From the NCBI RefSeq assembly GCF_002934455.1, contig NZ_PTIR01000009.1, positions 186,001 to 250,000 on the forward strand: a stretch of 64,000 nt of DNA, read 5' to 3'. Source of the DNA: Trinickia symbiotica (lineage in GTDB: Bacteria > Pseudomonadota > Gammaproteobacteria > Burkholderiales > Burkholderiaceae). Position 1 is the stretch's first letter; each line of letters starts with the position of its first letter. Of this stretch, positions 35,271 through 51,377 are shown piece by piece. A program made the translations under genes and the position numbers. Under the pieces are notes generated by a model that was given only the letters and a program-made list of their open reading frames with translations, searched no databases and was not told the origin of the DNA.

Positions 35271-36479
35271 TCACGAGACGATCTCGATTCCCATGGCCGT
35301 CGCTTCGCCGCCGCCGATGCAAAGGCTCGCCACGCCGCGCTTGCCGCCGCGCTTCCTCAATGCGCCAATGAGCGTGACGAGAATGCGCGCGCCTGAGGCG
35401 CCGATCGGATGCCCAAGTGCGCAGGCGCCGCCGTTCACGTTGACGATCTCGTGCGGCAGGCCGTGTTCCTTCATCGCCGCCATCGTCACGACGGCGAATG
35501 CCTCGTTGATTTCATAGAGGTCGACGTCGCTGGCGCGCCAGCCGTTTTTCTCGAAGAGCTTGCGGATGGCGCCGACGGGTGCCGTCGTGAACTTCGCCGG
35601 TTCCTGGGCGAACGTGGAGTGGCCGACGACGCGTGCGAGCGGCGCGATGCCGAGCCGCTCGGCCGTGGACGCGCGCATCATCACGAGTGCCGCCGCGCCG
35701 TCCGAAATCGAAGACGAGTTCGCCGCCGTGACCGTTCCGGTTTTGCTGAATGCGGGCTTGAGCGTCGGGATTTTCTCGATGTTCGCCTTGAACGGCTGCT
35801 CGTCGCGCGCGATCAGGACCTCGTCGCCCTTGCGGCCTTCGATTTTCGCGGGGGCGATTTCCCACGAGAATGAACCGTCCTCGTTGGCCCGCCGTGCTCT
35901 CATGAGCGATTCGACGGCGAACGCGTCCTGCGCTTCGCGAGTGAAACCGAACGAGCCGGCGCATTCCTCGGCAAACGTGCCCATCAGACGGCCTTTGTCG
36001 TAGGCGTCTTCGAGCCCGTCGTAGAACATGTGGTCGATCACCTGGCCGTGCCCCATGCGCATACCGGCGCGCGCCTTCGGCAGCAGGTACGGCGCATTCG
36101 TCATGCTTTCCATCCCGCCCGCGACGATCACATCGGCCGAGCCGGCGGCGAGCATGTCGTGCGCGAACATGGCGGCGCGCATGCCGGAGCCGCACATCTT
36201 GTTGACGGTCGTGCAGCCGGTGGAAAGCGGCAAGCCGGCACCGAGCGCGGCCTGACGCGCTGGTGCTTGGCCAAGACCGGCCGGCAGCACGCAGCCCATC
36301 AGTGCCTCGTCGACCTGCTCGGGCTTCAGTCCCGCGCGCGCGAGCGCCGCTTCGATCGCAATGGCGCCGAGCCGCGGCGCCGCGAGCGCGGCGAGCTCGC
36401 CTTGGAACCCGCCCATCGGCGTGCGCGCCGCGGCGACGATGACGACGGCATCGCTGGACCTCTCTCTTGCATCACTCAT
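35271..36479 (-). CDS. Acetyl-CoA acetyltransferase (thiolase)
   Basis: A 402-residue thiolase. The nucleophile Cys96 is in NKMCGSGM, the His is in GHPIGASGARI, and Cys387 begins CIGGGEA. Biosynthetic type: short chain, acetoacetyl-CoA formation or cleavage. The start overlaps the carbonic anhydrase stop by 8 bases, so translation is probably coupled. In leucine catabolism it would take acetoacetyl-CoA to acetyl-CoA. Confidence 0.93.
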   Translation of the reverse strand: MSDARERSSDAVVIVAAARTPMGGFQGELAALAAPRLGAIAIEAALARAGLKPEQVDEALMGCVLPAGLGQAPARQAALGAGLPLSTGCTTVNKMCGSGMRAAMFAHDMLAAGSADVIVAGGMESMTNAPYLLPKARAGMRMGHGQVIDHMFYDGLEDAYDKGRLMGTFAEECAGSFGFTREAQDAFAVESLMRARRANEDGSFSWEIAPAKIEGRKGDEVLIARDEQPFKANIEKIPTLKPAFSKTGTVTAANSSSISDGAAALVMMRASTAERLGIAPLARVVGHSTFAQEPAKFTTAPVGAIRKLFEKNGWRASDVDLYEINEAFAVVTMAAMKEHGLPHEIVNVNGGACALGHPIGASGARILVTLIGALRKRGGKRGVASLCIGGGEATAMGIEIVS

Positions 36480-37236
36480 GCTTGATCTCCTTGATTACGC
36501 CTTCGACGACCGCCTCGACCTTCGTCAGCTCGGCGGCGTCGGCAGCGACGATGTCGATATCGGCCGCGCTCGCCCGCTTGGCGGAAAGCGCGGCTACGCA
36601 GCGTTCGTAAGTACTGCCGAGCATCTCGGCGCTCGAAATCGTCATGCCGAGATTGCGCATGCGTCCGTCGTGCACGCCGTAGGTCCAGCCGTGCACCGTG
36701 AGTGGCTGGCTGCGCGCCCACGCGTCGTTCACGATCGTCGTGCGACAGACGTTGACCACTTGCTCGATCGTGTTCAATTCGACGAGACGCCGATGCCGGG
36801 CCTCGCCCATCGGCCACTCGTCGAGCAGCGCCGCGTGCTTCGCGCGCACGTCGTGAATGTGATGAAGCCAGTTGTCGGCGAGTCCCACGCGCCTGTCGAA
36901 CAGGGCCGCGCCGACGCCCGAGCAGCCGTAATGGCCGACCACCATGATGTGCTTGACCTTCAGCAAATCGACGGCGAACTGGATCACGGACAAGCAGTTC
37001 AGGTCCGTATGCACGACGACGTTCGCGATGTTGCGGTGGACGAACACTTCACCGGGCGGCAGCCCGATGATCTGATTGGCGGGCACCCGCGAGTCGGAGC
37101 AGCCGATCCAGAGGTATTCCGGGGTTTGCTGATCGGCAAGCCGCGAGAAGTACTGCGGATCTTCGGCGAGCTTGCGCTTGACCCACGACTGGTTGTTGGC
37201 GAAGAGGTGAGCGAGCGGATGGTCTTGATCGTTCAT
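36472..37236 (-). CDS. can: Beta-class carbonic anhydrase
   Basis: A 254-residue zinc enzyme hydrating CO2 to bicarbonate. Ligands and dyad are visible: C46, D48 and R50 in IGCSDSR, and H102 and C105 in VVGHYGCSG. The start MNDQDHPLAHLFANNQSWV is the usual one. A role next to acyl-CoA and carboxylase chemistry is plausible because biotin carboxylases use bicarbonate. 84 bases follow the aceK gene, and the stop overlaps the thiolase start. Confidence 0.95.
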   Translation of the reverse strand: MNDQDHPLAHLFANNQSWVKRKLAEDPQYFSRLADQQTPEYLWIGCSDSRVPANQIIGLPPGEVFVHRNIANVVVHTDLNCLSVIQFAVDLLKVKHIMVVGHYGCSGVGAALFDRRVGLADNWLHHIHDVRAKHAALLDEWPMGEARHRRLVELNTIEQVVNVCRTTIVNDAWARSQPLTVHGWTYGVHDGRMRNLGMTISSAEMLGSTYERCVAALSAKRASAADIDIVAADAAELTKVEAVVEGVIKEIKHE

Positions 37237-37320
37237 GATGCGTCGTGACGGTGGATTGGATTGATACAGCTCCGGACACTGGCGTCCTCGAATGAATGCC
37301 GCGAGCGAAACGGCGGCCGT

Positions 37321-39156
37321 TCAAGCCGCTCGCTTGCCGTGGCTCGGCTCGTCCGTCGCCTGTGGTTCGGCGCCGGGCGAAGTCTCGTGAAAGCGCTCGG
37401 GATAGCGATTGCAAAAACGTGCGTTCCTGTCGTAGGGAAAGAAGTCCGGCAATTCGCCTTTGAGTAGCTGCTCCTTGTGTCTTTGCCAAAGCGCCGGGTC
37501 GAAAATATCCGCATGGTGGCGCATGAAGTAGCGGCGCACGGTCGGATCGCCGAGCAGGAACGTGCCGTAGGTTTCGGGAAAGATGTCGTTGGGGCCGACG
37601 GCGTACCACGTCTCGGCCGAGAGCTCGTCTTCCTCGCTTTGCGCCTGCGGCACGTGGCGAACGTTGCAGTCGGTCAGGTATTCGATTTCGTCGTAATCAT
37701 AGAAGACAACGCGCCCGTGGCGGGTCACGCCGAAGTTCTTGTAGAGCAAATCGCCAGGGAAGATGTTGGCCTGGATGAGCTCCTTCACCGCATCGCCGTA
37801 CTCCTTGACCGCATGCTCGATATCGGCTTCCGTGCCATTTTGCAGGAACATGTTGAGCGGCACCATGCGGCGCTCGATGTAGACGTGCCGGATGATGACG
37901 CAATCGCCCTCGTATTCGATCATCGAAGGCGCCTCCCTTTCGAGTTCGCGCAAGAGCGCATCGTCGAGCCGCGCGAGCGGCAATGCGACACTCGAATATT
38001 CGAGCGTATCGGCCATGCGGCCGAGGCGGTCGTGCCGCTTCACGAGCAGGTATTTTTCCTGGATCTTCTCGCGCGTCGTATCCTTCGGCGCCGGGAAGCT
38101 GTCCTTGATCAGCTTGAACACATAAGGGAACGACGGCAGCGTGAAGACGATCATCACGAGTCCCTTGATGCCGGGCGCGATGATGAACTGATCGCTCGAA
38201 TGCGAGAGGTGCTTCAGCAGGTCGCGATAAAAGAGGTTTTTGCCTTGCTTCTGCAGGCCGACCGACGTGTAGATTTCCGCCTTCGGCTTGCCCGGCATGA
38301 TCGTCTCGAGAAAGTCGACGTAGGCGGATGGCACGGCCATATCGACGAGGAAATACGAGTGTGAGAAGCTGAAAATGATCTGCAACTGCTCACGCCTGAG
38401 CAGCACGGTATCGAGCGCGAGCAGACCCGGGCGCACATGCCGGATCGGCACGGCGAATGGCAACAGCAGCTCGCCGTTGATGATCCGGCCGATGACGTAC
38501 GCGGCCTTGTTGCGATAGAACAGCGACGAGAGCACGTGCACCTGGAAGTTGAACGCTTCCTGGAACGGTCCGTAGGTCTCGTGGAGGGTGTCGATGATGC
38601 AGGCGACGTCGCGTGAAAGATTTTCGAACGGCACCTCGAGCTGAAAGTTCGTGACGATTCGCTCGAGCGTCGCCGCGAGGCCGTCCTTACCAGGGTAGTA
38701 GGCGCGATACGTAGGCTTCGCGGCAGGCTCTTCGTTCTCGAGATATTCGGTCGAGATGACAGGGCGCACGAAGATGAAGTCGTTGTTGAAGTACGACCGG
38801 TGCAGGATCTTGCAGCAGACTGAATTGAAGAACGTCTCGGCGCACTCGGGCTGCAGGTGGTTCGTCAGCAGTCCTATGTAATGGAGCCTGATCTGCTGCC
38901 AGACATCGTCATCGATTCTCTCGGCGTCGTATTCGTCCTGAAGCAGCTCGACACAGGCTTGGACGCGGTTGTCGTAGGACGCGATCCGGTCGCGCGCGAG
39001 CTTTTGCAGTCCGAGCCAATCGGCCGTTTCGAAGAGCGTCTTCGCGCGCGCACCGGCCTCGCGAAACGCACCGTAGTGGCCGTTGAAGCCTTCGAGGATC
39101 GACTGCGCCATGTCGAAGCCGATCTGCGAGGAAAGGAGCTTCGGAAAGTGCTTCAT
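37321..39156 (-). CDS. aceK: Isocitrate dehydrogenase kinase/phosphatase
   Basis: A 611-residue bifunctional enzyme that phosphorylates and dephosphorylates isocitrate dehydrogenase, steering flux between the Krebs cycle and the glyoxylate shunt. Conserved segments include [40 protein letters not shown] (ATP site), and [20 protein letters not shown] with the catalytic Asp. ATG 39156 overlaps the MerR stop (ATGA), so the two genes are cotranslated; the frame is open to 39204. Placement with acetyl-CoA-producing catabolism makes sense, since these pathways feed the glyoxylate shunt. Confidence 0.96.
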
Positions 39157-39560
39157 GCGCGCACGGCCTCGGCCGCCCCGTTTTCGGCGAGCATGGCTCG
39201 GCACTGGGCTTCGTATCGCGCGAGGTCTCCGAGCGTCGCGTTCAGATCGTCGAGCTGGCGCTCGAGCACCTCGCGATGCTGCGCGATCGTGGCGAGAAAC
39301 GCCCGCAACTGGGGTACCGTGTCGGTCGGCGAGTCATACAGATCGAGCAGCCGGCGAATCTCGGAGAGCGTAAACCCGAGGCGCTTGCCGCGCAGCGTCA
39401 ACTTGAGCCGCGTGCGATCGCGGCTCGAGTAGACGCGCCGCAACCCGCCCGAGCCCTCCCGCTTCGGCGCGAGCAGTCCCTGGTCTTCGTAGAAGCGGAT
39501 CGCGCGGGGCGTTACGTCGAATTCGCGCGCGAGCTCGGTGATCGTGAAATGCTGGCTCAT
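39153..39560 (-). CDS. liuR: MerR-family regulator, LiuR type
   Basis: A 135-residue regulator with an N-terminal winged helix ([20 protein letters not shown]), [25 protein letters not shown], and a C-terminal coiled coil. The length and the sequence [20 protein letters not shown] resemble LiuR, the regulator of leucine/isovalerate catabolism. The symbol is inferred from this resemblance and the gene neighbourhood. It lacks the cysteines of metal sensors. The gene is divergent from the MBL-fold hydrolase gene and overlaps aceK. Confidence 0.72.
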
Positions 39561-39671
39561 GGTGTTCGCTTCGGCTCGGCCGGCATGTGCCCGCGCGGCT
39601 CACGCGCTCGCGCATTCGTGCGGCGCTCGCGGGGGCGGCTGCGACTTTCCGGCCGGATCGGGTAGAATCGG

Positions 39672-39693
39672 TCGACGTTTACGTTATCGTCAA
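39672..39693. promoter_or_regulatory. Palindromic MerR/LiuR-type operator
   Basis: The 22-base site TCGACGTTTAC-GTTATCGTCAA is a dyad with 8 of 11 positions matching between arms. It lies in the 171-base divergent space between the liuR-type gene and the MBL-fold gene. On the minus strand TTGACG starts the site and is a good -35 box, and ATTCTA follows at 19 bases, the long spacer typical of MerR promoters. It resembles published LiuR sites as I recall them; binding is inferred. Confidence 0.6.
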
Positions 39694-39731
39694 CTTCGAC
39701 AAAGCGCAACCTGCGCGACTGAAACCGTCCG

Positions 39732-40802
39732 ATGAATCCGCTCGAACATCAACTCGACTATCCGTTCGGCGACACGCTCGTCGAGCCGGCCGCCACGCTT
39801 GAGGTGGCGCCCGGCATCTACTGGGTGCGCATGCCGCTGCCGTTTGCGCTCGACCATATCAATCTCTGGTTGCTGCGCGACGAGATCGATGGCCGCCAAG
39901 GGTGGACCGTCATCGATTGCGGCATCGCGAGCGACGTCATCAGGGGGCACTGGGAATCGATCTTCGATACCCGGCTCCAAGGCTTGCCGGTCCTTCGCAC
40001 GCTGGTTACGCATTGCCATCCCGATCACCTGGGCCTTGCGGACTGGATCTGCAACGGCGGCGCCCGCGAGCGCTGGAAAGTGCGGCTTTGGATTTCGCTC
40101 GGCGATTACATGTTGGGGCGCGTGATGGCGGCCGGCGACGGGTCGAACGCGGGCGGCGAGGGCGCGGCGCGCCATTTTGCGCGGCACGGGGTGACCGATC
40201 CGGAGGCGCTCGAGAAGCTGCGCAATCGTAAGGACTACTATTCGAATCTGGTGCCGTCGATGCCCTCGCAGTACCGGCGCCTGCGTGAAGGCGACAAGGT
40301 GACGATCGGCGCTCACGAATGGCGCATCGTCACCGGCTACGGACATTCGCCCGAGCACTGCGCGCTTTTCAGCGAAAGCGCGGGTGTACTGATTTCGGGC
40401 GACATGGTCCTGCCGCGTATCTCGACGAACGTGTCCGTCTTCGATATCGAGCCCGAGGGCGACCCGCTCGCGCTTTATCTCGAATCGCTCGGCCGGTATG
40501 AGTCGATGCCTGCCGATACGCTCGTGCTGCCTTCCCATGGCCGGCCGTTTCGCGGGCTGCATACGCGCATCGAGCAGTTGCGCACGCACCACGACGCGCG
40601 GCTTGCCGAGGTGCGGGAAGCTTGCGCTCGCAGCCCGCAAAGCGCGGCCGACATCGTGCCGATCATGTTCCGCCGGCAGCTCGATATTCACCAGATGACG
40701 TTCGCGATGGGCGAAGCGCTCGCGCATTTGCATTTGCTCTGGCATGCGGGGGAACTCGTGCGCATCCAGGGCGCGGACGGGGTGATGCGATTCCGCCTAT
40801 AG
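39732..40802 (+). CDS. MBL-fold metallo-hydrolase
   Basis: A 356-residue protein. The metal motif HCHPDH is at about residues 97-102 (THCHPDHLG), with further ligands in GHSPEHCAL and LISGDMVLP and a final His in LPSHGRPF. The C-terminal helical part (about 265-350) resembles the beta-lactamase-associated winged helix of hydroxyacyl-thioesterase-like members. The substrate is not certain; a thioesterase acting on acyl-CoA would suit the neighbouring genes. It is divergent from the LiuR-type regulator and shares its operator region. Confidence 0.82.
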   Translation: MNPLEHQLDYPFGDTLVEPAATLEVAPGIYWVRMPLPFALDHINLWLLRDEIDGRQGWTVIDCGIASDVIRGHWESIFDTRLQGLPVLRTLVTHCHPDHLGLADWICNGGARERWKVRLWISLGDYMLGRVMAAGDGSNAGGEGAARHFARHGVTDPEALEKLRNRKDYYSNLVPSMPSQYRRLREGDKVTIGAHEWRIVTGYGHSPEHCALFSESAGVLISGDMVLPRISTNVSVFDIEPEGDPLALYLESLGRYESMPADTLVLPSHGRPFRGLHTRIEQLRTHHDARLAEVREACARSPQSAADIVPIMFRRQLDIHQMTFAMGEALAHLHLLWHAGELVRIQGADGVMRFRL

Positions 40803-40806
40803 CGCG

Positions 40807-41418
40807 TTATCGATCGACGATCGCAACGACCCCGAGGGCTATGAACAGCGCGCCCGAGAGATACCGGCCGATAGTAAGCGCCGTCCCTTCCGAGCTAACG
40901 TTACGGCGAAGCGGATGTGCGAGAACGATGCAGACCAGGTCGGCAATCGTAAAGAAAGCGTTTGCTGCCGCGCCGAGGAGGAATAGTTGCCACCCTACAT
41001 TGATCGATGCGGCGGGGTCGGCGAATTGCAGCAGGAAGGACATATAAAAGAGCGCCGACTTCGGGTTCGATGCTTCGATGAATGCGCTAGAAAAGACGAT
41101 TCTGGTCGGCAATCCCGTCTGCACGTTGTGAGCAGGCTTGGTACGCAACCGCTCGATTCCAAGCCAGACCAGATAGGCCCCGCCGACTATCCTCAACGCG
41201 TGGTATAGCCACGGGGTCGTTTGCAAAACGACGACCGCTCCGAACGCGACCAGACAGATCTGGAAGAACGCGCCAACGTGAATTCCCAAAGCCGATAACA
41301 GCCCCGCCCGGCGCCCGTGCTGCAGCGTCAGCGATACCGTTTGCAACAGGGCGGGACCCGGGATAAAGCCGAAGCCGAGGCAAGTCAAGCCGAACGCGAA
41401 CATCTTTTCGATAGCCAT
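40807..41418 (-). CDS. LysE/RhtB-family amino acid exporter coupled to the radical SAM enzyme
   Basis: A 203-residue inner-membrane protein with about six helices. The LysE-family N terminus FIPGPALLQTVSLTLQHGRR and the motif FIEASNPKSALFYMSFLLQF are clear. Such exporters move amino acids and small derivatives outward. ATG 41418 shares its A with the stop of the radical SAM gene (TGATG), so the two are cotranslated. Base composition is below the surrounding DNA (48% in 41041-41100 and 57% in 40981-41040 by direct count, against 68% at 40501-40560). I infer that it exports the product of the linked enzyme. Confidence 0.85.
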   Translation of the reverse strand: MAIEKMFAFGLTCLGFGFIPGPALLQTVSLTLQHGRRAGLLSALGIHVGAFFQICLVAFGAVVVLQTTPWLYHALRIVGGAYLVWLGIERLRTKPAHNVQTGLPTRIVFSSAFIEASNPKSALFYMSFLLQFADPAASINVGWQLFLLGAAANAFFTIADLVCIVLAHPLRRNVSSEGTALTIGRYLSGALFIALGVVAIVDR

Positions 41419-43007
41419 CAGATGCTGTCTCCGATTACGATACCGAGCTGCCGACACTCTTCCCTGACTCGATCCCGAGCGGTAGCTATTTGGTCCTTGG
41501 AGAGGCGAGGCATTACTGCCCTGACATAGTCTCCTATTGCCATTTCACGATCGAACAGGTCAACGCCCCGATAACGATCGGCGACTTGACGCCGCAAACG
41601 GTCTTCCGCGATTTCGAGGCCGAGGCGCTTTGATAACTCGGCGGCGGCATCGGGTTCGGTTAGGTAAAGAAAATCCTTGGATCCGGGTTCCGGCGATAGC
41701 AACTCAATGTCTGCGCTTACGATCACGTCCCGCCCGCTCCTAAGAAAATCGATATACATCTGTACGTTCGCTTCCATCAGAGTCTCGTTCATTCCAAGGT
41801 GACCGAGGACAAAGCCGGCTTTGATCGCCAAGCCGCATTTGCGGGCGTTCCGCAGCGCGCGAAGGTTGGACTCGTACATTTTTGTTGCCGCCACGGCGGC
41901 GTCTTTATGTCTCAAGGGCTTGTTGAGGGCCAACAGGGAAAGCGGTGCGCCCGCGTCGACGCCGACAAACAAAATTCTGAAGCCGATTTCTCGCATTGCT
42001 TCAAGCACGTGGCCTTTCTCCATGCCATCAGCTCGCGCGTAACCGACCAAGACTGGCCTCTGTTCGAAAGCGAGCGATTGCCACCAAGCAGGGGGTGTTC
42101 GCGCCATATCAAGGATCAATCGTGCGAACGTCAGAGGCAATTCGTCGGCGGTGATGTAAAGGTAATCGTATCCGCACAGCCATGCTTTGCGGATGGCTTC
42201 CCACGCGTGCGCGCCAGGCAGCTCGTTTTTCCACATGCCGCCGTATTGAATAGAACAGAAGGAGCACGCATCATCGCCGTTGAATTTGATACATCCGCGG
42301 CCGATTTCGACGGGGACCCCTTTCTTTACATGTCGCCCGGTCAGCTTGTGAATTCGATCGCCGAGACGGCGCGCAAAGTTGGACGTATATGTCGCCGTAT
42401 GTTGCAGCCCGCGATCGATCAGACTGTAGTCGACGATCTGGTTGATTCCTTCGCGAATCTGCGGGTCGCGAACAATCTCTTCGTGCTGCCATCGGACGCA
42501 GCCAGGGTAGACCCCGTCCGTGCGATGACGCTGTCGATCTCGCAAGTAATCGGCGAGCCCACTGTAGACTTCATTGCCCGCGAACCCGCAATCGATCAAA
42601 TCCTTATGCCGGACGAGAATCGAATTGCTTAGGGACGAAAAGTGATCGTTGCCCATGATGACAGCGACAGACGGATCGAGATCCTTGATTTCCTTTGCCA
42701 GTATGATCGCCGCTTCGTAGTTTGCCGTTATCGCGCTGAGGCATACGGCGAGCGTCTGGTGCATCCGCTCGCGAATCAAGCCAAGGATGGCCGAGAGCGG
42801 GTGTACCACGCCATCGACATAGACTGCCTCCATGCCAGGTAGCGAGTCGATGTACGACGCGAGCGAGAGGATGCCCAAGTGCGGGAAGTTTGCCCAGTCG
42901 GTGTGCTGCACTCCCTTCGATACGGCGGTTTCTCCGTTTTGCCCTGAGTCAAGGTCATCGCTGTTCGGCGGGTTGACGAAGAAAACGACTGTCCTCAGAT
43001 TTCTCAT
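41418..43007 (-). CDS. B12-binding-domain radical SAM enzyme with unusual cluster motif
   Basis: A 529-residue protein. Residues about 35-160 look like a cobalamin-binding Rossmann domain (FPHLGILSLASYIDS, then AVIMGNDHFSS), without the DxHxxG base-off motif. The radical SAM core follows with IGRGCIKFNGDDACSFCS: C239, C248 and C251, so C-X8-C-X2-C instead of the usual C-X3-C-X2-C. Later core strands include GFRILFVGVDAGAPLSLLAL and AIKAGFVLGHLGMNETL. The C-terminal about 130 residues are helical. Similar widened motifs (C-X7-C-X2-C) occur in RiPP-maturation B12 enzymes. No precursor peptide gene is evident nearby. GC is low (53% at 41761-41820, 48% at 42601-42660), suggesting transfer. The substrate is unknown. 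Confidence 0.75.
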   Translation of the reverse strand: MRNLRTVVFFVNPPNSDDLDSGQNGETAVSKGVQHTDWANFPHLGILSLASYIDSLPGMEAVYVDGVVHPLSAILGLIRERMHQTLAVCLSAITANYEAAIILAKEIKDLDPSVAVIMGNDHFSSLSNSILVRHKDLIDCGFAGNEVYSGLADYLRDRQRHRTDGVYPGCVRWQHEEIVRDPQIREGINQIVDYSLIDRGLQHTATYTSNFARRLGDRIHKLTGRHVKKGVPVEIGRGCIKFNGDDACSFCSIQYGGMWKNELPGAHAWEAIRKAWLCGYDYLYITADELPLTFARLILDMARTPPAWWQSLAFEQRPVLVGYARADGMEKGHVLEAMREIGFRILFVGVDAGAPLSLLALNKPLRHKDAAVAATKMYESNLRALRNARKCGLAIKAGFVLGHLGMNETLMEANVQMYIDFLRSGRDVIVSADIELLSPEPGSKDFLYLTEPDAAAELSKRLGLEIAEDRLRRQVADRYRGVDLFDREMAIGDYVRAVMPRLSKDQIATARDRVREECRQLGIVIGDSI

Positions 43008-43266
43008 TTCGTATAGGTGCGCGTCCGCGCGTAGAACCGGTCACGGATGCACTATGAAGAAACCCTCGGGGGATGACTGGCTGGTACCGATTTCTCAGAC
43101 CGAATTACCCTTTTTCAATCGGGTTCGCGCGCCGCGACGTCAACGCTGCCATCCGACAGCATCAGTGCGATTTGCCCGTCACATGTGGCGCCGACTGGCA
43201 ACGTACCATCGCCGCGGCACACAGTTTGCGTTCGAACGACGAAGTTTGAACGACGAGGCGGGCAAA
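43008..43266. other. Divergent region between the radical SAM and GFA genes
   Basis: 259 bases holding the promoters of the two divergent genes. A plus-strand frame from ATG 43054 stays open into the GFA gene but lacks a ribosome site and known sequence. A minus-strand frame ending at 43115 overlaps the GFA start and is not convincing. No precursor-peptide gene is identifiable. Confidence 0.4.
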
Positions 43267-43671
43267 ATGCTGACAGGCGGCTGTTTATGCGGAAAGGTTC
43301 GTTACGAGGTAACGGGCGCGCCATTTCACTCGACGATTTGCCACTGCGTGGACTGCCGCCGGTGCGCGGCGGCTCCCCTGGTTGCATGGTTCAGCGTGAA
43401 GCGATCCGAGTTTCGCGTCGTCCAGGGCACGATCGCGCGCTTTGCGTCGAGCAAGCCGGTCTTGCGCACGTTTTGCGCGGACTGCGGCACTCCGCTAACG
43501 TACCAACACGACGATTTCCCCGACGAAATCGACGTGACGACCTGCAGCCTCGACGCGCCCGATGCCGTCCCGCCGGACGATCACACCTGGGCGTCGCAAC
43601 GTCTGCCTTGGCTGCCGATTTCGGACGGGTTGCCGCAGTACCCACACGGCCGCGACAAAGCGGCCGTGTGA
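43267..43671 (+). CDS. GFA-family (glutathione-dependent formaldehyde-activating enzyme-like) zinc protein
   Basis: A 134-residue protein with the CENP-V/GFA fold. Zinc sites: GGCLCGKVRYEV, CHCVDCRRCAAAPLVAWF and FCADCGTPLTYQ. Members are often misnamed; the function is uncertain. ATG 43267 follows GAGGCGGG. The frame is open upstream to 42832 with no supporting homology. An 11-base hairpin overlaps its last codons and stop. Confidence 0.85.
   Translation: MLTGGCLCGKVRYEVTGAPFHSTICHCVDCRRCAAAPLVAWFSVKRSEFRVVQGTIARFASSKPVLRTFCADCGTPLTYQHDDFPDEIDVTTCSLDAPDAVPPDDHTWASQRLPWLPISDGLPQYPHGRDKAAV
43643..43670. terminator. 11-base hairpin overlapping the GFA stop codon
   Basis: CACACGGCCGC (43643-43653) and GCGGCCGTGTG (43660-43670) are perfect arms with a 6-base loop. 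The arms encode the last residues of the GFA protein and include two bases of its stop. The gene converges on the NCS1 permease gene, so it may be a shared terminator, although no U tract follows. Confidence 0.5.
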
Positions 43672-43707
43672 GCAGCGCGTACGGCTCGGTTGGCCGGATC
43701 GGTCAGC

Positions 43708-45168
43708 TCAAACCCGCGCGGTCGGCACAATCGCGGCGCGCGGCCGCAGCGCCGCCATGATCAGGTACATGCAACCGCCGATCAGTACGCCGAAGAACCA
43801 TCCGTAGGTGTTCCACCAGACGGGCAGCAGAGAGGTAAGGTTGGGCAAAAAAGTCGAAAACACACTGCCGACGCCGGCGGAGACGATCGCGTTGACGTTC
43901 CAGCCGCCTTCGTAGCGGTATTCGCCGTGCTCCTCGTAAAGCGCCGCGACGTTGATGTTGCCTTTGGCCACCAGGTAGTAATCCGCGAGAATGACCCCCA
44001 GCAGCGGGCCCATCGTCGCGCCGATCGCGTTGACGAAGTGCGCCGCATTGCCTTCCCAGGGCGCGAAGGGATAGAGCACGAGCGCAATCAGCGCGGCGAT
44101 GTAGCCGCCCCGCTTGAAGCTGATATGTTTCGGGAACACGTTCGAAATATCGAACGCCGCGGACACGAAGTTGGCCACCACGTTGATGCCCAGCGTGGCC
44201 ACGGCGAACGTCAACGCCGCGATGAGTGCCAGCACCCAGCTGTCGAACTTGGCCGAGATCTGCTCGGGATGGAGCAGCGCTTCACCATAGACCTTGAAGG
44301 CGGCGATAGTCGTGATACCCGCTACGAGCGAGAACGCGATCAGGTTGACGGGCAGCCCCCAAAGATTGCCTTTCTTCACCGCGTCGCGGTTTTTTGCGTA
44401 GCGCGAGAAGTCGCAAAAATTCAGGTATAGCGCCGCGAAGTAGGTGATCCAGGTTGCCCCCACCGCCATCAGCGCCCAAAACGAACCGGGTTCACCGCTG
44501 ATGCCGGCGTCCTTCGTTTTATCGAGCAGCACGTTCATCGGAATGCCGTGGGAGAACGAGAAGCCGCCAGCCTTGATACAGAGGCCGATCGCGAGAATCA
44601 GCATGGCGACCCAGACCGCCGGGCCAGCCCAGTCCTGGAATCTGCGCACGGTCTCCATCCCTTTCTGGATGATGAGCAACTGCAGCGCCCATATGACCAC
44701 ATAGCAAATCACCTCCAGCGTGGAGTGGCCGAGCAACTGCGAGCTCTTCTCGAACGCCATCAGGCTGTCGTTGCGCACGAGCAGCGCAACCACCGCGCCC
44801 GAAGCCGCCGCCGTCTGTGCGCCGTACCAGAAGCAGGCGACCACGGCGCGCACCAACGCCGCGAGATTGGCGCCCCATACGCCGAACGACGCGCGCGCCA
44901 AAACCGGGTAGGGTACGCCCGTCTTCTCACCGGCGTAGCCGATCAGGTTCATGAGGGCGAAGATCACGAGCGAGCTGAGCCCGATCGCGAGCAAGAAATT
45001 GACGAAGCTGCCGCACAGCAGAAAGAGGCTCGCGGCGAGGTAGTAGCCCCACAGGCTGTGCACGTCCGAAGTCCAGACGTTGAAGATGCTGAAGGCCCCC
45101 CACTTGCGCTCCCGCGCTGGCGCCAGGTCTTCGTTGTAGAGGCCCGGCGAAGGATTGCGGATTTCCAT
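43708..45168 (-). CDS. NCS1-family nucleobase permease
   Basis: A 486-residue inner-membrane transporter with about twelve helices. It begins NPSPGLYNEDLAPARERKWG, the NCS1 start, then FNVWTSDVHSLWGYYLAAS, helix-1 and -3 contact motifs and FLNFCDFSRYAKNRD. Substrates in the family are cytosine, uracil, allantoin, hydantoin or thiamine precursors; none can be chosen here. No nucleobase catabolism gene adjoins it. The gene converges with GFA and is divergent from the sugar kinase. Confidence 0.9.
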   Translation of the reverse strand: MEIRNPSPGLYNEDLAPARERKWGAFSIFNVWTSDVHSLWGYYLAASLFLLCGSFVNFLLAIGLSSLVIFALMNLIGYAGEKTGVPYPVLARASFGVWGANLAALVRAVVACFWYGAQTAAASGAVVALLVRNDSLMAFEKSSQLLGHSTLEVICYVVIWALQLLIIQKGMETVRRFQDWAGPAVWVAMLILAIGLCIKAGGFSFSHGIPMNVLLDKTKDAGISGEPGSFWALMAVGATWITYFAALYLNFCDFSRYAKNRDAVKKGNLWGLPVNLIAFSLVAGITTIAAFKVYGEALLHPEQISAKFDSWVLALIAALTFAVATLGINVVANFVSAAFDISNVFPKHISFKRGGYIAALIALVLYPFAPWEGNAAHFVNAIGATMGPLLGVILADYYLVAKGNINVAALYEEHGEYRYEGGWNVNAIVSAGVGSVFSTFLPNLTSLLPVWWNTYGWFFGVLIGGCMYLIMAALRPRAAIVPTARV

Positions 45169-45480
45169 CTGTCATCTCCTTTGAATAGGTGGATCAAGGA
45201 AACACCGCCGGATACTCCTTTTGGGGTGGAGATGCTCCCGCGTATGAAGCCAAGGGACAGGGAAGAGCTGGACGTGCTTTACCGCGCCGTTAGGACCAAT
45301 CGAAGGCCATTATTGCGCGCGAAAAAAAATAAGGGCAAGCAGGCGAAGCGCGCGTTTGGCCGATGACCGGCTCGGCAAGCGGTGGCCTTTGCGGTTCTGG
45401 CAACCTCGATGCGGTGCTCCATGACGGCGCACGGCATGCGTCTTGCGGCGCAATCAGACAAATCCTCACACGCCGTGGAT
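45169..45480. other. Divergent intergenic region (312 bases)
   Basis: It separates the NCS1 permease from the sugar kinase and must contain both promoters. A purine-rich run (near 45320-45340) and an AT-rich strip are visible, but no convincing hexamer pair. The kinase frame is open back to 45382; nothing else is seen. Confidence 0.35.
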
Positions 45481-46464
45481 ATGGAAACCGTAATCAGCAT
45501 CGGCAGCATCAACGCAGACTTCCAGATGCGCGTGGATGAGCCGCCCGGCGGGAAAGAGACGCTTGCCGGCCGCGAGCTCATCCGCCCCTCGGGCGGCAAG
45601 GCGGCGAACGTCGCTTATCTCGCGCGGCTGCTCGGCATCGAGAGCCGGCTCATCGGCATGGTCGGCGACGACGACCTCGCTTCGCAGGCGCTCGACCCGT
45701 TGCGCCGAGCCGGCGTCGATGTGTCGCGCGTGCGCGTCGCGACTGGCCACGCCACGTCCGTCGCCGTCATTCTCGTTCCGCCCGACGGCAAGAAGCGGAT
45801 CGTGCATGTCTACAACGCGAACGACGTCTGGGACGAAGCGGCCCTCGCCGCGCTCGAGCACGAGATCGAGGCGGCGCCGCGCTCGGCCGTCGTGACGGTC
45901 GACGCGGAAATCGCGACCGATGCGGCGGCGCTCGCGATCCGGACCGCAACGCGCCGAGGCTTACGCGCCGTACTCGATCCGTCGCCAACGGAGCGAACAT
46001 CGGTTTCGCCGATTGCCGATTTGCTCCCGGACCTTCATGCCATTACCCCCAACAATGAAGAGGCCACCGTACTGACCGGCATCGAGATCAAAGACGACGA
46101 AAGCGCGGCGCGCGCCGCCGAGGCGCTTCATGCGCGCGGCATTGCGCTCGCGTGCGTGAAGCTTGCCGATGGCGGCTGCGTTGCCGCATTTGACGATTCG
46201 ACGCTGTTCATCGCGGCGACCCCTGTTGCGGTCGTCGATACGACGGGTGCGGGCGACGGCTTCACGGGCGCGCTGTCGATCGCGCTCGCGCGCGGTGTGC
46301 CGCCCGACGAGGCGGTGTTGTATGCCGCCGCCGTCTCGCATTGGAGCGTGACGCGCTATGGTTCGCAGGCGGCCTATCCCGGCCCGGACGAACTGCAGCC
46401 GATGATCGAGCGTCTGCGCGGCGGAGTGCGTCGCGTGCCGCGCGGTCAGCGCGTCCATCGTTGA
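45481..46464 (+). CDS. PfkB/ribokinase-family sugar kinase
   Basis: A 327-residue kinase. SIGSINADFQMRVDEPPGGK, the substrate-binding PSGGKAANVAYLARLLG, ITPNNEEATVLTG and the catalytic DTTGAGDGFTGALSIALARG are ribokinase signatures. ATG 45481 is chosen because METVISIGS is the typical start, although the ribosome site is weak; the frame is open to 45382. It lies 15 bases before a GH65 phosphorylase gene. Together they suggest disaccharide phosphorolysis with phosphorylation of the other sugar; the sugar is unknown. Confidence 0.87.
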   Translation: METVISIGSINADFQMRVDEPPGGKETLAGRELIRPSGGKAANVAYLARLLGIESRLIGMVGDDDLASQALDPLRRAGVDVSRVRVATGHATSVAVILVPPDGKKRIVHVYNANDVWDEAALAALEHEIEAAPRSAVVTVDAEIATDAAALAIRTATRRGLRAVLDPSPTERTSVSPIADLLPDLHAITPNNEEATVLTGIEIKDDESAARAAEALHARGIALACVKLADGGCVAAFDDSTLFIAATPVAVVDTTGAGDGFTGALSIALARGVPPDEAVLYAAAVSHWSVTRYGSQAAYPGPDELQPMIERLRGGVRRVPRGQRVHR

Positions 46465-46479
46465 GCCGGGAACCTGAAC

Positions 46480-48930
46480 GTGTCCGAACACGGCGTCCGC
46501 TTGAGTCGTTATGATCGCGCCGACGAGCGGCGGCGCGAATCGTTGCTCGGGCTCGGCAACGGCATGCTGTTCGTGCGCGCGAGCGCGCCGGAGGCGGGGT
46601 TACTCTCGCTGCTCGCCGAAGACGGGACCGTCGCGGCGCAGCCGGGCGCGCGGGAACACTCGGCGTGCCACTATGCGGGCACTTACCGCGCGGGTGTCTA
46701 CAACGAGCTGGAAAACAAGATCGATGCGCAGTCGGCCCCCGTACGAATGAGCTTCATGCCGCGTCTGCCCGACGCGACGCCGCTGGCGGTGCGCCCGCGT
46801 GGCGGCCAATGGCTGTCGCCTGACTTCGCGAAGGTGCTGGAATACCGGCACGAGCTCGACCTCGAACATGCGCTCGCCTACCGGACCTTGGTGCTCACTG
46901 CGGGCGGCCGCACCACGCGCATCGTCGAAACGCGCCTCGTCAGCGCGGCCCATCCTTACTTCGTGCTCGTGCGCTGGCAGGTGGTGCCGCTCGATTGGTC
47001 CGGTACGCTCGAAATCGGCGCGGGCATCGAAGGTCGCGTGCGCAACACCAACGTCAAGCGTCATGCGGCCTATGTCGGCCAGCACGTGGTCGGCATCGAG
47101 TGCGAGGCGTGCGGCGACGATCGTCTCTTGCTGACCGCGCGCCTCAGCGGGTCGAGCGTCGAGATCGCCGTGGCGACGCGCCTCGAGATCGAAACGGCCG
47201 GCGCTCGGTCTCGCGCGGAGAGACGCTTCGAACACGCCGCCGAAGCGATCGCCGAAGTGCATGAGGTATCGGTCGAGGCGGGTCGGGCACTCACGATCGA
47301 CAAGCTGATCGCCGTGCAGACATCGCGCGACCATACAGTCATGGGCGTATCCGACGCGGCCCTCGCGACACTCGAGCACGTCGCCGACGTCGATGCGCTC
47401 ATCGACGCGCATCAGCGTGCGTGGCACGCCGACTGGTCGAGATGTCGAATCGTCGCCGACGATCGTGATTTGACGCATCAGCTCGACATCCGCTTCTTCC
47501 ATTTGCTGCAGGCGCTCTCGCCGTTCGCGGGGTTGCAAGATGCCGGCATACCGGCTCGCGGCTGGCAGGAGGCCTATCACGGGCACATCTTCTGGGACGA
47601 GATTTTCGCGGCGCCGATGTTTGCCGTGCGGCAACCGGAAACGGCTAAGACACCTCTGTTCTATCGCTTCCGGCGTCTCGACGCGGCGAGGCAGATGGCA
47701 AGAGAAGCCGGGCTGACCGGCGCGATGTTTCCATGGCGCAGCGCGACGACCGGCTACGAAGAGACGCCACCCTATCAAATGAACCTCGTCAGCGGCCAAT
47801 GGATGCGCGACGAGACGCGGCTCGAGCGGCACGTCGGCGCCGCGATTTGCTGGAATGTCTGGACCTACTTCTGCGCGACGGGCGATTGGGCGTTTCTGTC
47901 GCGCTATGGCGCGCCGCTCGTCGTGGAGATCGCGCGCTTCTGGTCCTCGCTTGCCTCGTTCGACGACACACGCAAGCGTTACACGATCGGCGGCGTCGTC
48001 GGCCCGGACGAATACCACGATGGGTATCCATGGCGAGACACGCCGGGGCTCGACGATAACGCCTACGTGAACGTCATGGCCGTATGGTCGTTGCTGTGCG
48101 CGCTCGAGGTGCTCGCACGGCTGCCCGCCGGTCGCCGCGATGCCCTCTGCGCGACACTCGCGCTGACGAACGACGAGCTCGCCCGATGGGAAGACATTGC
48201 TCGCCGCATGTTCGTGCCGTTTACGCATGAAAACGTGATCGCGCAGTTCGAAGGCTTCGATCGGCTGCTGCCCTACGAGCAGGCAATCGAAGCGCGGCAA
48301 GCGGATACGCGTCTCGACTGGGCGCTCGATGCGCGCGGCGACAGCACGAACCGCTATCAGGTTGCGAAGCAGCCTGACGTGGTGATGCTGAACTACCTGC
48401 TCGGCGACGATACGCTGCAGGCGCTTTTGCAGCGCCTCGGCTACGCGTTCGACGACGATGCGGCACGCCGCACGGTCGGCTACTACATCGACAGAATGAC
48501 GCACGAATCGACGCTTTCACGGATAAGCTGCGCCGGCGCGCTGGCGCGCATCGACTCTGACCGCTCGTGGCAGTACTTCGTCGATGCGTTGCGCGTCGAC
48601 GTGGATCCACAAGCGGGATCCTCGCCGCAGGAAGGCCTGCACCTCGGCGCGTTCGCGGCCGTGCTCGACGTGCTGCAGCGCCGCTACGTCGGACTCGACT
48701 TCGACTTCGACGCCATTCGAATCTTCCCCGCGCTGCCGCGAGCGTTGCCGCCGCTCCACTTTTCGTTTCTCTATCGCTGCGATCGGTTTTCGATCGAGAC
48801 GTCGGCGCGAAACTGCATCATCGCGTCGGACAGCGCCAACCGCGCTGCCGTGCGCGTCCGAAGCCCAGCGGGCGACGAGACGCTCGCGCCCGGTGGATCG
48901 CTCACGATCGAGTCGCGGCACGCACGCTGA
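46480..48930 (+). CDS. Glycoside hydrolase family 65 disaccharide phosphorylase
   Basis: An 816-residue enzyme. The N-terminal beta-sandwich (about 1-280) and a linker precede the (alpha/alpha)6 catalytic barrel (about 330-690). The general acid Glu is in GPDEYHDG at about 508-515 (Glu511), and the phosphate-binding KQPDVVML starts at about 630. These are the signatures of maltose, trehalose, kojibiose and nigerose phosphorylases; the specificity cannot be told. The GTG start at 46480 is 15 bases after the kinase stop, so the pair is one transcription unit. No transporter or regulator is adjacent. Confidence 0.9.
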   Translation: MSEHGVRLSRYDRADERRRESLLGLGNGMLFVRASAPEAGLLSLLAEDGTVAAQPGAREHSACHYAGTYRAGVYNELENKIDAQSAPVRMSFMPRLPDATPLAVRPRGGQWLSPDFAKVLEYRHELDLEHALAYRTLVLTAGGRTTRIVETRLVSAAHPYFVLVRWQVVPLDWSGTLEIGAGIEGRVRNTNVKRHAAYVGQHVVGIECEACGDDRLLLTARLSGSSVEIAVATRLEIETAGARSRAERRFEHAAEAIAEVHEVSVEAGRALTIDKLIAVQTSRDHTVMGVSDAALATLEHVADVDALIDAHQRAWHADWSRCRIVADDRDLTHQLDIRFFHLLQALSPFAGLQDAGIPARGWQEAYHGHIFWDEIFAAPMFAVRQPETAKTPLFYRFRRLDAARQMAREAGLTGAMFPWRSATTGYEETPPYQMNLVSGQWMRDETRLERHVGAAICWNVWTYFCATGDWAFLSRYGAPLVVEIARFWSSLASFDDTRKRYTIGGVVGPDEYHDGYPWRDTPGLDDNAYVNVMAVWSLLCALEVLARLPAGRRDALCATLALTNDELARWEDIARRMFVPFTHENVIAQFEGFDRLLPYEQAIEARQADTRLDWALDARGDSTNRYQVAKQPDVVMLNYLLGDDTLQALLQRLGYAFDDDAARRTVGYYIDRMTHESTLSRISCAGALARIDSDRSWQYFVDALRVDVDPQAGSSPQEGLHLGAFAAVLDVLQRRYVGLDFDFDAIRIFPALPRALPPLHFSFLYRCDRFSIETSARNCIIASDSANRAAVRVRSPAGDETLAPGGSLTIESRHAR

Positions 48931-48952
48931 CGAGCGACGTGACGCTCACCCG

Positions 48953-50272
48953 CTAGCTCGCGGCACCGCCACCGGCCCGTGACATCTCGCGCACGCGCTC
49001 GAGCAACAGCTCCCGCTCCCGTCCGTTTTGTGTCATCGTCGCGGCCCGCTCGAATTCGGCGCGCGCTTCGTCATAACGGCCCAGCTTTGCGAGCAGGTCG
49101 CCGCGCACGCTCGGCAGCCAGTGATAGCGGGCGAGCGCGGGCTCGGCGGCCAGCGCCTCGACGAGCGCGAAACCGGCTTCGGGCCCGAATGCCATCCCAA
49201 CGGCGACTGCGCGATTGAGCTCGACGACGGGCGACGGGCTGATTTGCACGAGCGCGTCATAGAGCGCGACGATCTGCTCCCAATCGGTCTCTTCGGCCGT
49301 ATGCGCGCGCGCATGGCAGGCGGCGAGCGCCGCTTGCAGCGCATACGGTCCGAGCGCGCCGCCGAGCGATTCGGCTCGCGCGAGCGCGGCGAGCCCACGT
49401 CGGATCAAGAGCGGATCCCAGCGCGAGCGGTCCTGGTCGGCAAGCAGAATGGGCCGGCCGCGCGCATCCGTCCGAGCGTGAAGCCGCGACGCCTGGAGCT
49501 CCATCAGGGCGACGAGCCCATGCACCTCGCTTTCGTCGCGCGCGAGCTCCGCGAGTATCCGCCCGAGACGCAGCGCCTCGTCGCATAGCGCGGGACGCAT
49601 CCAGTCGTCGCCGGCTGTCGCCGCGTATCCCTCGTTGAAGACGAGATAGATGACTTCCAGCACGGATGCCATGCGGGAACCGCGCTCTTGCGCGCTCGGC
49701 ACTTCGAACGGGACTTTTGCCGCGCTCAGCGTGCGTTTCGCCCGCACGATGCGCTGCGCGATCGTCGGCTCCGAAACGAGAAATGCGCGCGCGATTTCGT
49801 GCGTCGTGAGGCCGCCGAGAAGACGCAGCGTCAGGGCCACTCGTGCGTCGGTCGACAGCACCGGATGGCAGGCGGTGAAGACGAGCCGCAGGAGGTCGTC
49901 GCCGATGTCGTCGGCGCGCTTCGCATCGAGCGAATCGACGAAGTCGGGCACGACGTGCGCCTCGAGCGCGTCGAGCTCGTGGCCCATCGCTTCGTGCTTC
50001 TTCGCATGAAGCGCATCGAGCCGCAGCTTGTCGAGCGCGCGGTTTTTTACGGTGGCCATGAGCCATGCGCCGGGGTTGTCGGGCACGCCTTGTCGCTGCC
50101 AGTGCTCGAGCGCGGCAACGAGCGCGTCTTGCGCGAGTTCCTCGGCGACGCCGATATCGCGCACGTAACGCGCCGCATGCGCAACGACGCGCGCCGATTC
50201 GATCCGCCAGACGGCTTCGATCGCCCGGTGGGTCGCGTTTGTCACCGCGTCAGCCGCATCGTTGCCGTTCAC
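48953..50272 (-). CDS. ECF42-type RNA polymerase sigma factor
   Basis: A 439-residue ECF sigma factor, twice the usual size. Region 2 includes ESARVVAHAARYVRDIGVAE and LAQDALVAALEHWQRQG, region 4 includes LRLLGGLTTHEIARAFLVSE with PTIAQRIVRAKR, and the C-terminal half (about 190-430, VIYLVFNEGYAATAGDDWMR onward) is the helical TPR-like extension of the ECF42 group. This group has no anti-sigma factor and is linked to DGPF/YCII proteins, two of which precede it here (6 bases after the first). It probably directs transcription of those genes. Confidence 0.88.
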   Translation of the reverse strand: MNGNDAADAVTNATHRAIEAVWRIESARVVAHAARYVRDIGVAEELAQDALVAALEHWQRQGVPDNPGAWLMATVKNRALDKLRLDALHAKKHEAMGHELDALEAHVVPDFVDSLDAKRADDIGDDLLRLVFTACHPVLSTDARVALTLRLLGGLTTHEIARAFLVSEPTIAQRIVRAKRTLSAAKVPFEVPSAQERGSRMASVLEVIYLVFNEGYAATAGDDWMRPALCDEALRLGRILAELARDESEVHGLVALMELQASRLHARTDARGRPILLADQDRSRWDPLLIRRGLAALARAESLGGALGPYALQAALAACHARAHTAEETDWEQIVALYDALVQISPSPVVELNRAVAVGMAFGPEAGFALVEALAAEPALARYHWLPSVRGDLLAKLGRYDEARAEFERAATMTQNGRERELLLERVREMSRAGGGAAS

Positions 50273-50278
50273 GGTCCG

Positions 50279-50698
50279 TTATCGCTTCGACGTTTGCAGC
50301 TCGCGGAAGCGCTCGATATCGGCGCTCGGCTCGAAATCGTCGAGCTCGTAAAGCTGCCGAACCTCGATCTCCCCATCGGCCGATTCGCCGAACGGGGCGG
50401 GAAAGCGCCGCGCCCATTCCATCGCCTCTTCGCGCGAGCGCACCTGAATCAGCGTATAGCCCGCGATGAGCTCCTTGGTGTCGGCAAACGGGCCATCGAT
50501 CACGGTCCCCTTGCCGCCTGAATAGCGAATACGCCAGCCCTGCGCGCTCGGCCTGAGACCGGTCGCATCGAGCAGCACGCCGGCTTTCGCCAGCTCTTCG
50601 TGATAGGCCGTCATATCGGCGAGGATCTTGTCGCCGGGGCCCGGCAAGATACCTGCTTCGGTCTGCGCGTTCGCTCGCACCATGATCATGAATCGCAT
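50279..50698 (-). CDS. DGPF/YCII-domain protein, ECF42-linked
   Basis: A 139-residue protein of the DGPF/YCII fold. It begins MRFMIMVRANAQTEAG and contains the DGPFADTKELIAGYTLIQ motif that names the group. A small ferredoxin-like fold is expected; the biochemistry is unknown. The start follows AAGGAGCG. It is followed by the sigma factor gene with 6 bases between, and a candidate ECF promoter lies 65 bases upstream. Confidence 0.88.
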   Translation of the reverse strand: MRFMIMVRANAQTEAGILPGPGDKILADMTAYHEELAKAGVLLDATGLRPSAQGWRIRYSGGKGTVIDGPFADTKELIAGYTLIQVRSREEAMEWARRFPAPFGESADGEIEVRQLYELDDFEPSADIERFRELQTSKR

Positions 50699-50762
50699 CG
50701 TTCGCTCCTTGTTCAGCGCGGATTGATGGAATGCCCGAACCTTTAACGGGCTCCTGTCGATA

Positions 50763-50790
50763 CGACGAACGAACCGGGACCTCATCGACA
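50763..50790 (-). promoter_or_regulatory. Candidate ECF42 promoter
   Basis: On the minus strand TGTCGA (50790-50785) and CGTCG (50767-50763) are spaced 17 bases, 65 bases before the 139-residue DGPF gene. The two boxes match the TGTCGA / CGTC type reported for ECF42 targets, as I recall. No equivalent is evident before the first DGPF gene at 51172, so it may be read through from elsewhere. Confidence 0.4.
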
Positions 50791-50818
50791 TCGGCACGGG
50801 CCGACTAGGTACAAACCC

Positions 50819-51172
50819 CTATTCATAGCAAGGCGCGAGACGGCGGACCTCGACGGTGCACCACTGGGCGGCCGGGCATTCGGCCGCAATCGCGACGGCC
50901 TCCTCCTCGCGATCGCAATTGAGGAGGTAGAAGCCGCCGACCATTTCCTTGGCTTCGGCGAACGGGCCGTCGACGATGCGGCGCTCGCCGCCGCGAACCT
51001 CGACGCGCACGGCTTCGTCCGTCGACGCAAGCGATTGCGCCGCCACGAGCAGACCGCGCGCACGCAGATCGTCGGCGAAACGAAGCATGACGTCGTAGGC
51101 TGCGCGTCCTTCTTCCGGCGTGCGCGCGCGGCGCTGTTCGAGCGGCTCGACGATCAGTAGCAGGTAGGACAT
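50819..51172 (-). CDS. DGPF/YCII-domain protein, ECF42-linked (first of two)
   Basis: A 117-residue protein with the same fold: MSYLLLIVEPLEQRRARTPE, then DGPFAEAKEMVGGFYLLNCD. The function is unknown. ATG 51172 follows AAGGAGC. It lies 120 bases before the 139-residue paralogue; the two share the DGPF motif but differ in N terminus. Upstream is the convergent-free space before the peptide-binding protein gene. Confidence 0.88.
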   Translation of the reverse strand: MSYLLLIVEPLEQRRARTPEEGRAAYDVMLRFADDLRARGLLVAAQSLASTDEAVRVEVRGGERRIVDGPFAEAKEMVGGFYLLNCDREEEAVAIAAECPAAQWCTVEVRRLAPCYE

Positions 51173-51377
51173 GACAGCTCCTTCGGTGGGGCGGTGGAGG
51201 GCATGTTGAATCGGAGAATCCAAAGGATAAGGCACCGCCGTTACCGCTGCCAGCTTTCGCCTCGACTGGAGCAAGCGGTAACGAGCGCCATCGTGCGGGC
51301 TGCCTTGCGTCAGGACGGGCGCCCGCCAAGCGGCGGACGAGCGGCCGCCCGGCGGGGCCCAAATTCGCCGATGGGTG

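Follow-up and report, generated by a model that had tools for sequence, protein, structure and literature searches.

Two overlapping genes in a 64,000-nucleotide stretch of the Trinickia symbiotica genome (contig NZ_PTIR01000009.1, positions 186,001 to 250,000 of the forward strand; hereafter the window) encode a cobalamin-type radical S-adenosylmethionine (rSAM) enzyme and a LysE/RhtB-type amino-acid exporter. Judged by genome comparison, the pair was acquired horizontally and is a self-contained, transferable two-gene unit. We give a probability of about one half to the reading that the enzyme acts on a metabolite resembling an amino acid, probably C-methylating it, and that the exporter secretes the product, most likely an antimetabolite, and protects the cell from it. 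We rate the pair as an uncharacterised cobalamin-type rSAM subfamily whose form is unusually compact, mobile and coupled to an exporter. A search of the open-licence literature, outside which most subscription papers fall, returned no paper on this enzyme-exporter pair.

Both genes lie on the reverse strand. The rSAM gene (43007-41418) encodes 529 residues with a B12-binding-like Rossmann N-terminus, an rSAM barrel and a helical C-terminus, and the exporter gene (41418-40807) encodes 203 residues. Read from the open reading frames (ORFs), the rSAM stop and the LysE start overlap in a TGATG (41420-41416, reverse strand), which suggests translational coupling. An alternative GTG 13 codons upstream would give a LysE of 216 instead of 203 residues; since homologues align with the ATG at 41418, we took the latter as the start. 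Among close loci, the ratio of nonsynonymous to synonymous substitutions (dN/dS) was ~0.1 for the rSAM gene (three comparisons) and 0.11-0.20 for LysE (five comparisons); by these ratios both genes are under purifying selection.

Conserved co-occurrence had been proposed as a test of the pairing in a first-pass annotation of this DNA, and we found the two genes to be conserved as a unit. A genome-contig collection contained 14 loci encoding a relative. Counting loci from two collections with identical identity values as one genome, there were 13 distinct genomes or plasmids in which both genes stood side by side and intact. Eleven are beta-proteobacterial: the window, Chitinimonas (L016), T. 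fusca (L011), the metagenome-assembled genome (MAG) FW106 (L020), Burkholderia ubonensis (L009), Thiomonas (L010), an Acidovorax MAG (L012), B. catarinensis (L013), a P. sabiae plasmid (L024), and the genomes G1382 (L112) and G1400 (L113). The other two are halomonad (L015 and L017), with a LysE 33% identical to that of the window. A further Trinickia copy (L014) is divided by a contig end over two contigs, and L021 holds a truncated enzyme with no exporter found within 9.3 kb. An intact enzyme next to a broken pair-type exporter was not seen among the loci examined. rSAM sequence, fragments included, was present in seven of 61 genomes (the pair's own included), and exactly the same seven contained a pair-type exporter (61-71% identity, 100% for the own copy). 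The other 54 are without one, and the exporters listed there with E values of 1e-20 or lower share 31-37% identity.

With the query genome included each time, 2 of 369 genomes were positive in a class sample (one a weak partial match), 2 of 398 in a phylum sample (one weak and partial), 2 of 399 in an order sample and 3 of 201 in a sample of the halomonad's family (one a fragment). Phages gave no match, and a profile search of viral contigs returned ten pattern matches, none of them a relative. Among plasmids, a single record had LysE at E 1e-30, namely the P. sabiae plasmid.

The pair occupies the left end of a variable slot of 8.2 kb (40794..48989), just past a conserved MBL gene (39732-40802). 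This slot is not collinear in any of the eight sibling genomes compared (of ten searched). All eight follow the window to ~40793 and again from ~48990, with 0.6-3.6 kb of other sequence in between and no pair at this site; three of them (G003, G004 and G007) have the pair or a remnant at another genomic place. No tRNA was found at the slot (36000-52000). DNA comparison of nine loci revealed that collinear similarity starts from 223 bases before to ~100 bases after the enzyme start and stops at most 29 bases past the exporter stop. The remaining matches were short or transposase-type fragments in different arrangements. When B. ubonensis is compared with B. catarinensis, the collinear stretch extends no further than 27 bases ahead of the enzyme and 10 past the exporter. 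The 400-base downstream flanks of 11 loci had nothing in common, and among 12 upstream flanks of the same length similarity was confined to L009, L010, L013 and L022. Eight neighbours of the pair in the window were absent at 22 other loci tested, save a 36% MerR match (L112) and a 33% GFA match in an actinomycete (L028); the weak MerR match apart, none was found with the other beta-proteobacterial or halomonad pairs tested. Across 17 loci, the only neighbour set in common was that of Thiomonas and Halomonas. The P. sabiae copy lies on a conjugative plasmid amid several transposase genes.

We base horizontal acquisition on the absence of the pair from this site in the siblings and on flanks that differ between loci, and not on the rSAM gene tree. 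Because only five of its 15 inner branches are well supported, we claim no transfer event from that tree; its three Trinickia rows need one label change, which does not show transfer between genera. The first-pass annotation had likewise suggested a transferred cassette, and the absence from this site in 8/8 siblings, the patchy spread and the conjugative plasmid copy bear this out.

At 56.7% versus 64.7% in the remaining window, the GC content of the pair is the lowest of the window, and only one of 618 sliding 2.2-kb windows (step 100) was equally low. Over the full genes it amounts to 56.0% (rSAM) and 58.3% (LysE) against 59.6-64.5% in five neighbours, and the GC content at third codon positions (GC3) to 0.65 and 0.71 against 0.77-0.85. 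Hence the earlier claim of low GC was right in direction and overstated in size (hand-counted as 48-57% against 68%). A GC content equal to the genome mean, named there as an argument against transfer, was not what we found, our comparison being with the remainder of the window rather than the whole genome. Low GC is not a general feature of the pair, since it lies at least 5 points below the flanks in only 7 of 11 related loci (level in one, higher in three).

The presumed [4Fe-4S] motif of the enzyme, RGC-x8-C-x2-C, comprises Cys239, Cys248 and Cys251 (codons in frame at 42255..42293, reverse strand). An ORF and alignment check confirmed this motif, both ORFs and their overlap as first described. 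The three cysteines are invariant in 17/17 aligned proteins (the window protein among them); 16 have the spacing Cx8Cx2C, and the S. chartreusis protein has Cx15Cx2C. In the predicted structure, the loop carrying the cluster-motif cysteines (residues 240-258) has a confidence score (pLDDT) below 50. If the cluster site were confirmed, the wide loop (x8 to x15) would be a new case of an atypical rSAM cluster site. Pfam and the alignment delimit a B12-binding-like segment (residues 42-140; 42588..42884, reverse strand) that includes an invariant GNDHF (119-123). Its Pfam B12-binding match (E 4.6e-6, 26.9 bits) falls below the cut-off of 32.1, as does the Radical_SAM match of residues 242-408 (E 0.01, 16.5 bits, cut-off 29.5). 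The fold prediction supports both domains, an N-terminal Rossmann B12-binding-type domain followed by an rSAM barrel. Together with the sub-threshold Pfam match it substantiates the cobalamin-like domain suggested at first pass.

A fold search placed the predicted structure near TsrM, OxsB, TokK, CysS and MgmA, with TsrM as top Foldseek match (E 1.5e-15, 15% identity). Mmp10 had no match in the fold-search lists, an absence that excludes nothing. By sequence, neither a single-sequence phmmer nor a profile search against the PDB returned a credible solved relative. The protein also reached no curated cut-off of NCBIfam, where its top model was TIGR03975 (25.7 bits versus a cut-off of 281.85). 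The enzyme would represent a new subfamily of cobalamin-dependent rSAM enzymes.

TsrM, the free L-tryptophan 2-methyltransferase of thiostrepton (PDB 6WTE/6WTF), shares with the predicted window enzyme a two-domain cobalamin-type rSAM fold over nearly the full length. It differs in lacking any sequence match by phmmer or profile and in its cluster motif, PMC8992657 describing methylation of free tryptophan and a canonical CX3CX2C, versus Cx8Cx2C here. It is also part of a pathway for a ribosomally synthesised and post-translationally modified peptide (RiPP). The high rank of TsrM also bears on whether the enzyme is a methylase at all. It might instead catalyse a B12-dependent or -independent rearrangement, ring contraction or dehydration of a small molecule, with the exporter removing the product. 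We consider this rather unlikely, since four of the six top families (TsrM, MgmA, TokK and CysS) are methylases, TsrM stands first in Foldseek, and the best NCBIfam lead, although far below its cut-off, is a C-methyltransferase family. AprD4, a dehydratase that is not known to need cobalamin, came first by VIA Z and was the second family by Foldseek.

That lead, TIGR03975, is a family of RiPP maturation rSAM C-methyltransferases, which we take to include PoyB and PoyC. Like the window enzyme, these are B12-type rSAM proteins with a widened first spacing. According to PMC5682303 and PMC11285071, PoyC is a peptide C-methylase with a Cx7Cx2C motif. This likeness and the match itself (residues 88-258, E 3.8e-6) would suit an enzyme maturing a RiPP from a precursor encoded elsewhere, with LysE incidental or exporting a released amino acid. 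We hold such a role to be very improbable, as the cut-off is missed by far, the spacing is x8, and no third gene was seen to accompany the pair, with only 27 and 10 bases of flanking similarity between B. ubonensis and B. catarinensis. In addition, the enzyme is coupled to an amino-acid exporter, and LysE/RhtB exporters are carriers of small amino acids. As the collinear DNA stretches stop close to both genes, no precursor gene was seen to travel with the pair, in agreement with the first reading; short ORFs at each locus and precursors in trans were not searched.

The exporter matches PF01810 over its whole length (residues 19-201; 94.4 bits, cut-off 25.6), which establishes the LysE/RhtB identity given to it earlier. 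Its nearest NCBIfam models were RhtB-type 2A76 and LeuE, and it remained below the cut-off of all eight models listed. In a tree of 36 LysE proteins, 13 beta-proteobacterial and two halomonad pair exporters formed one clade (100/99), separate from the other 21. Thus, the window exporter has PF01810 in common with the RhtB/LeuE branch of the family and differs by belonging to a clade of its own with the halomonad pair exporters.

This exporter is also kept without a working enzyme. At four loci (L022, L007, L018 and L111) the enzyme was broken and the exporter intact. The enzyme gene of T. dabaoshanensis (L022) is reduced to 125 residues, versus 532 for its B. ubonensis counterpart; this loss of 407 codons is in frame and left the TGATG overlap in place and the exporter intact. 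The dN/dS of this exporter is ~0.11 relative to L009, and the enzyme loss may be recent. Several deletions in the enzyme accompany an intact exporter in G003, a single frameshift interrupts the enzyme in Curvibacter (L018), and in the halomonad G1304 only the last 52 enzyme residues are left ahead of an intact exporter. Within the genus Burkholderia, 9 of 65 genomes had a pair-type exporter, four with the enzyme alongside. The remaining five had the exporter alone, with no enzyme match genome-wide at E 0.001 in a search that recovered two positive genomes. These lone exporters are 69-72% identical to the window LysE and fall within the beta-proteobacterial pair-exporter clade (97/93), next to the T. 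fusca exporter (82/90, weak). Their locus (L106, L107, L108, L109 and L110) is conserved in 5/5 and includes HxlR and MBL genes as well as an XRE/cupin regulator. The lone exporters could be domesticated remnants, or the pair could have drawn its exporter from them; the tree does not discriminate between the two. The exporter-only state, which the first-pass annotation had overlooked, points to protection as well as export; overall, the interpretation given in that annotation is partly supported.

We propose the following scheme. The rSAM enzyme would take one of the host's free amino acids, or a metabolite resembling one, through a one-step radical modification, most likely C-methylation via methylcobalamin. 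LysE/RhtB, whose translation would begin at the overlapping start, would then pump the product out, serving both secretion and self-protection. The product would most likely act as an amino-acid antimetabolite against neighbours, making a lone exporter worth keeping as protection. Going further, and tentatively, the pair could be a minimal mobile weapon and immunity unit: one enzymatic step turns a common host amino acid into a toxic analogue, the coupled LysE secretes it and immunizes, the unit spreads between classes, and enzyme-less neighbours are resistant non-producers. If so, the lone exporters would be the chemical counterpart of orphan bacteriocin immunity genes. Cobalamin rSAM enzymes are usually encountered as part of larger pathways whose substrates are complex or unidentified; if enzyme and exporter are the whole pathway here, the substrate should be a common metabolite. 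Should the exporter confer immunity, the genomes that hold it alone would allow a direct test of one-step antimetabolite warfare in which resistant non-producers take part.

The nearest system that works alike is arsQML, the arsenite-induced arsinothricin cluster of Burkholderia gladioli, which we liken to the pair by description of function and do not place in the same family. As set out in PMC8552651, it is a tiny cluster with a noncanonical rSAM enzyme, an amino-acid-type antibiotic and a dedicated permease that exports and protects; the reaction predicted for ArsL is the transfer of a 3-amino-3-carboxypropyl group to arsenic. It differs in having three genes (the methyltransferase arsM, a GntP-related exporter and arsL) versus two here with a LysE-type exporter.

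The lone exporters would also suit a detoxification or overflow module, in which a harmful metabolite is changed by the enzyme and then leaves the cell through LysE, and a GFA-family gene and a permease do stand beside the pair in the window. However, these two and the six other neighbours were not at the other beta-proteobacterial and halomonad pair loci tested, the weak MerR match aside. Moreover, an oxygen-sensitive enzyme with two costly cofactors would be an unlikely detoxifier. We therefore regard this explanation as quite improbable.

A clue to the product of the proposed antimetabolite pathway comes from a distant homologue. On an S. chartreusis plasmid (L029:14499-17546), a tRNA-editing-domain protein (PF04073, 97.6 bits, cut-off 25.5), an rSAM homologue (33%) and an overlapping DMT-family exporter stand in a row. 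A DMT exporter in the place of LysE, together with an editing protein able to clear mischarged tRNA, would be consistent with a toxic amino-acid analogue, and the editing protein is possibly a guard against mischarged tRNA. A known case with canavanine is that of CtdA (PMC10018355), which belongs to another family of editing proteins.

Several points weigh against the antimetabolite reading. Substrate class, reaction, toxicity and immunity of the pair are inferred. With AprD4 as a high-ranked fold match, the predicted cobalamin requirement is not certain. The Curvibacter frameshift could be a sequencing or assembly error, and all four broken-enzyme loci come from draft assemblies. At its vertically conserved XRE/cupin locus, the lone exporter could be the ancestral form and serve another purpose, and its exact position in the tree is weakly supported. 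The S. chartreusis editing protein matches the Cys-tRNA(Pro) deacylase model weakly (53.7 versus 153.25 bits), and such a protein was seen next to one homologue only. The homologues of the actinomycete plasmids L025-L028 (42-44%) and of Anaerolineales (L019, 39%) are without LysE within 21-32 kb; the stretches examined around L019 and L025-L029 gave no LysE match at E 1e-5. Finally, a scan of 40700-43350 found no sigma-70-type promoter (1.2 in shuffles) and four terminator-like sites (3.0 in shuffles), neither of which is evidence either way. An Rfam scan of 39000-46000 at E up to 0.5 gave no match, hence no cobalamin or lysine riboswitch there.

Three annotated actinomycete plasmids carry the 42-44% homologue in one kind of nonribosomal peptide synthetase (NRPS) cluster (L025:1-20520, L027:1-20594 and L028:1-20575, also L030 as an extended L027), with a first protein annotated as FkbM. 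The cluster also holds urease gamma/beta and alpha genes and phosphotransferases. A 2-oxoglutarate (2OG) oxygenase gene is annotated in L027, with a sub-threshold match in L025; L026, an unannotated record, has a 44% homologue. Read by eye, L030 contains a Cys/thiazole-type module and an asparagine-like A domain. By pocket position and code, its A-domain pockets are presumably D-M-T-K-V-G-E-V-G (asparagine-like) and D-L-Y-N-L-S-L-I-W (cysteine). One guess for the NRPS-linked branch would be an asparagine-like amino acid.

In these clusters the product is probably a peptide building block. This would agree with an enzyme that makes an amino-acid-derived signal, osmolyte, siderophore-like molecule or building block, and with an exporter that merely releases it; so would the two halomonad hosts and the LysR gene divergent from the halomonad pairs. 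We find this unlikely, because the distribution is very patchy and because exporters without a whole enzyme (four loci) or without any (five Burkholderia-genus genomes) fit protection better.

The Thiomonas (L010) and Halomonas (L017) pairs lie at most ~2 kb from a common amino-acid-tailoring cluster (L010:3236-9425 and L017:1713-8278; 46-67% identity between the two), a nearness that we count among the clues to the product. The cluster encodes a PF14518 heme-oxygenase-like iron enzyme, a PF10014 2OG dioxygenase, an aminotransferase, ArgC-like and DapF-like proteins and a PAT/ArsN1-like acetyltransferase; ThiF and a ferredoxin were seen in the L017 version. The top match of the Thiomonas acetyltransferase was the ArsN1 arsinothricin-resistance family (79.5 bits, below the cut-off of 170). 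This cluster looks like a separate amino-acid antimetabolite pathway. We considered it as part of the pair system and rejected this, since relatives exist without an rSAM homologue alongside; we treat it as a neighbour. Its heme-oxygenase-like protein had no match in the window's genome, which shows little as there was no positive control. A shorter version on an Agrobacterium vitis plasmid (L087) has an EamA transporter ~4 kb away.

In the window, the remainder of the variable slot (43267-48930) contains the GFA-family gene and an NCS1 permease whose best counterparts in ten siblings are not close orthologues (44% or less). Judged by eye from the ORF translations, a PfkB-type kinase and a glycosyl-hydrolase-65-like ORF lie there too. 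At three loci (L009:9854, L010:9864 and L021:6710) a palindrome CCTGTCA-n4-TGACAGG precedes the pair by ~140 bases, and L022 has a related sequence; the palindrome may be an operator or an element end. A shared terminal repeat as the cause of mobility was rejected, as the palindrome pattern is lacking in the window and other loci and so is not a general border. In B. catarinensis (L013:7646-9851), a tryptophan-halogenase-family gene and then a second, distant LysE gene stand directly upstream of the pair. On a Burkholderia stagnalis plasmid (L090:4516-12361) we observed AzlC/AzlD amino-acid exporter genes, an insulinase-family protease and three rSAM proteins, two of which flank a 55-residue ORF, a set that looks like a peptide-scaffold amino-acid pathway.

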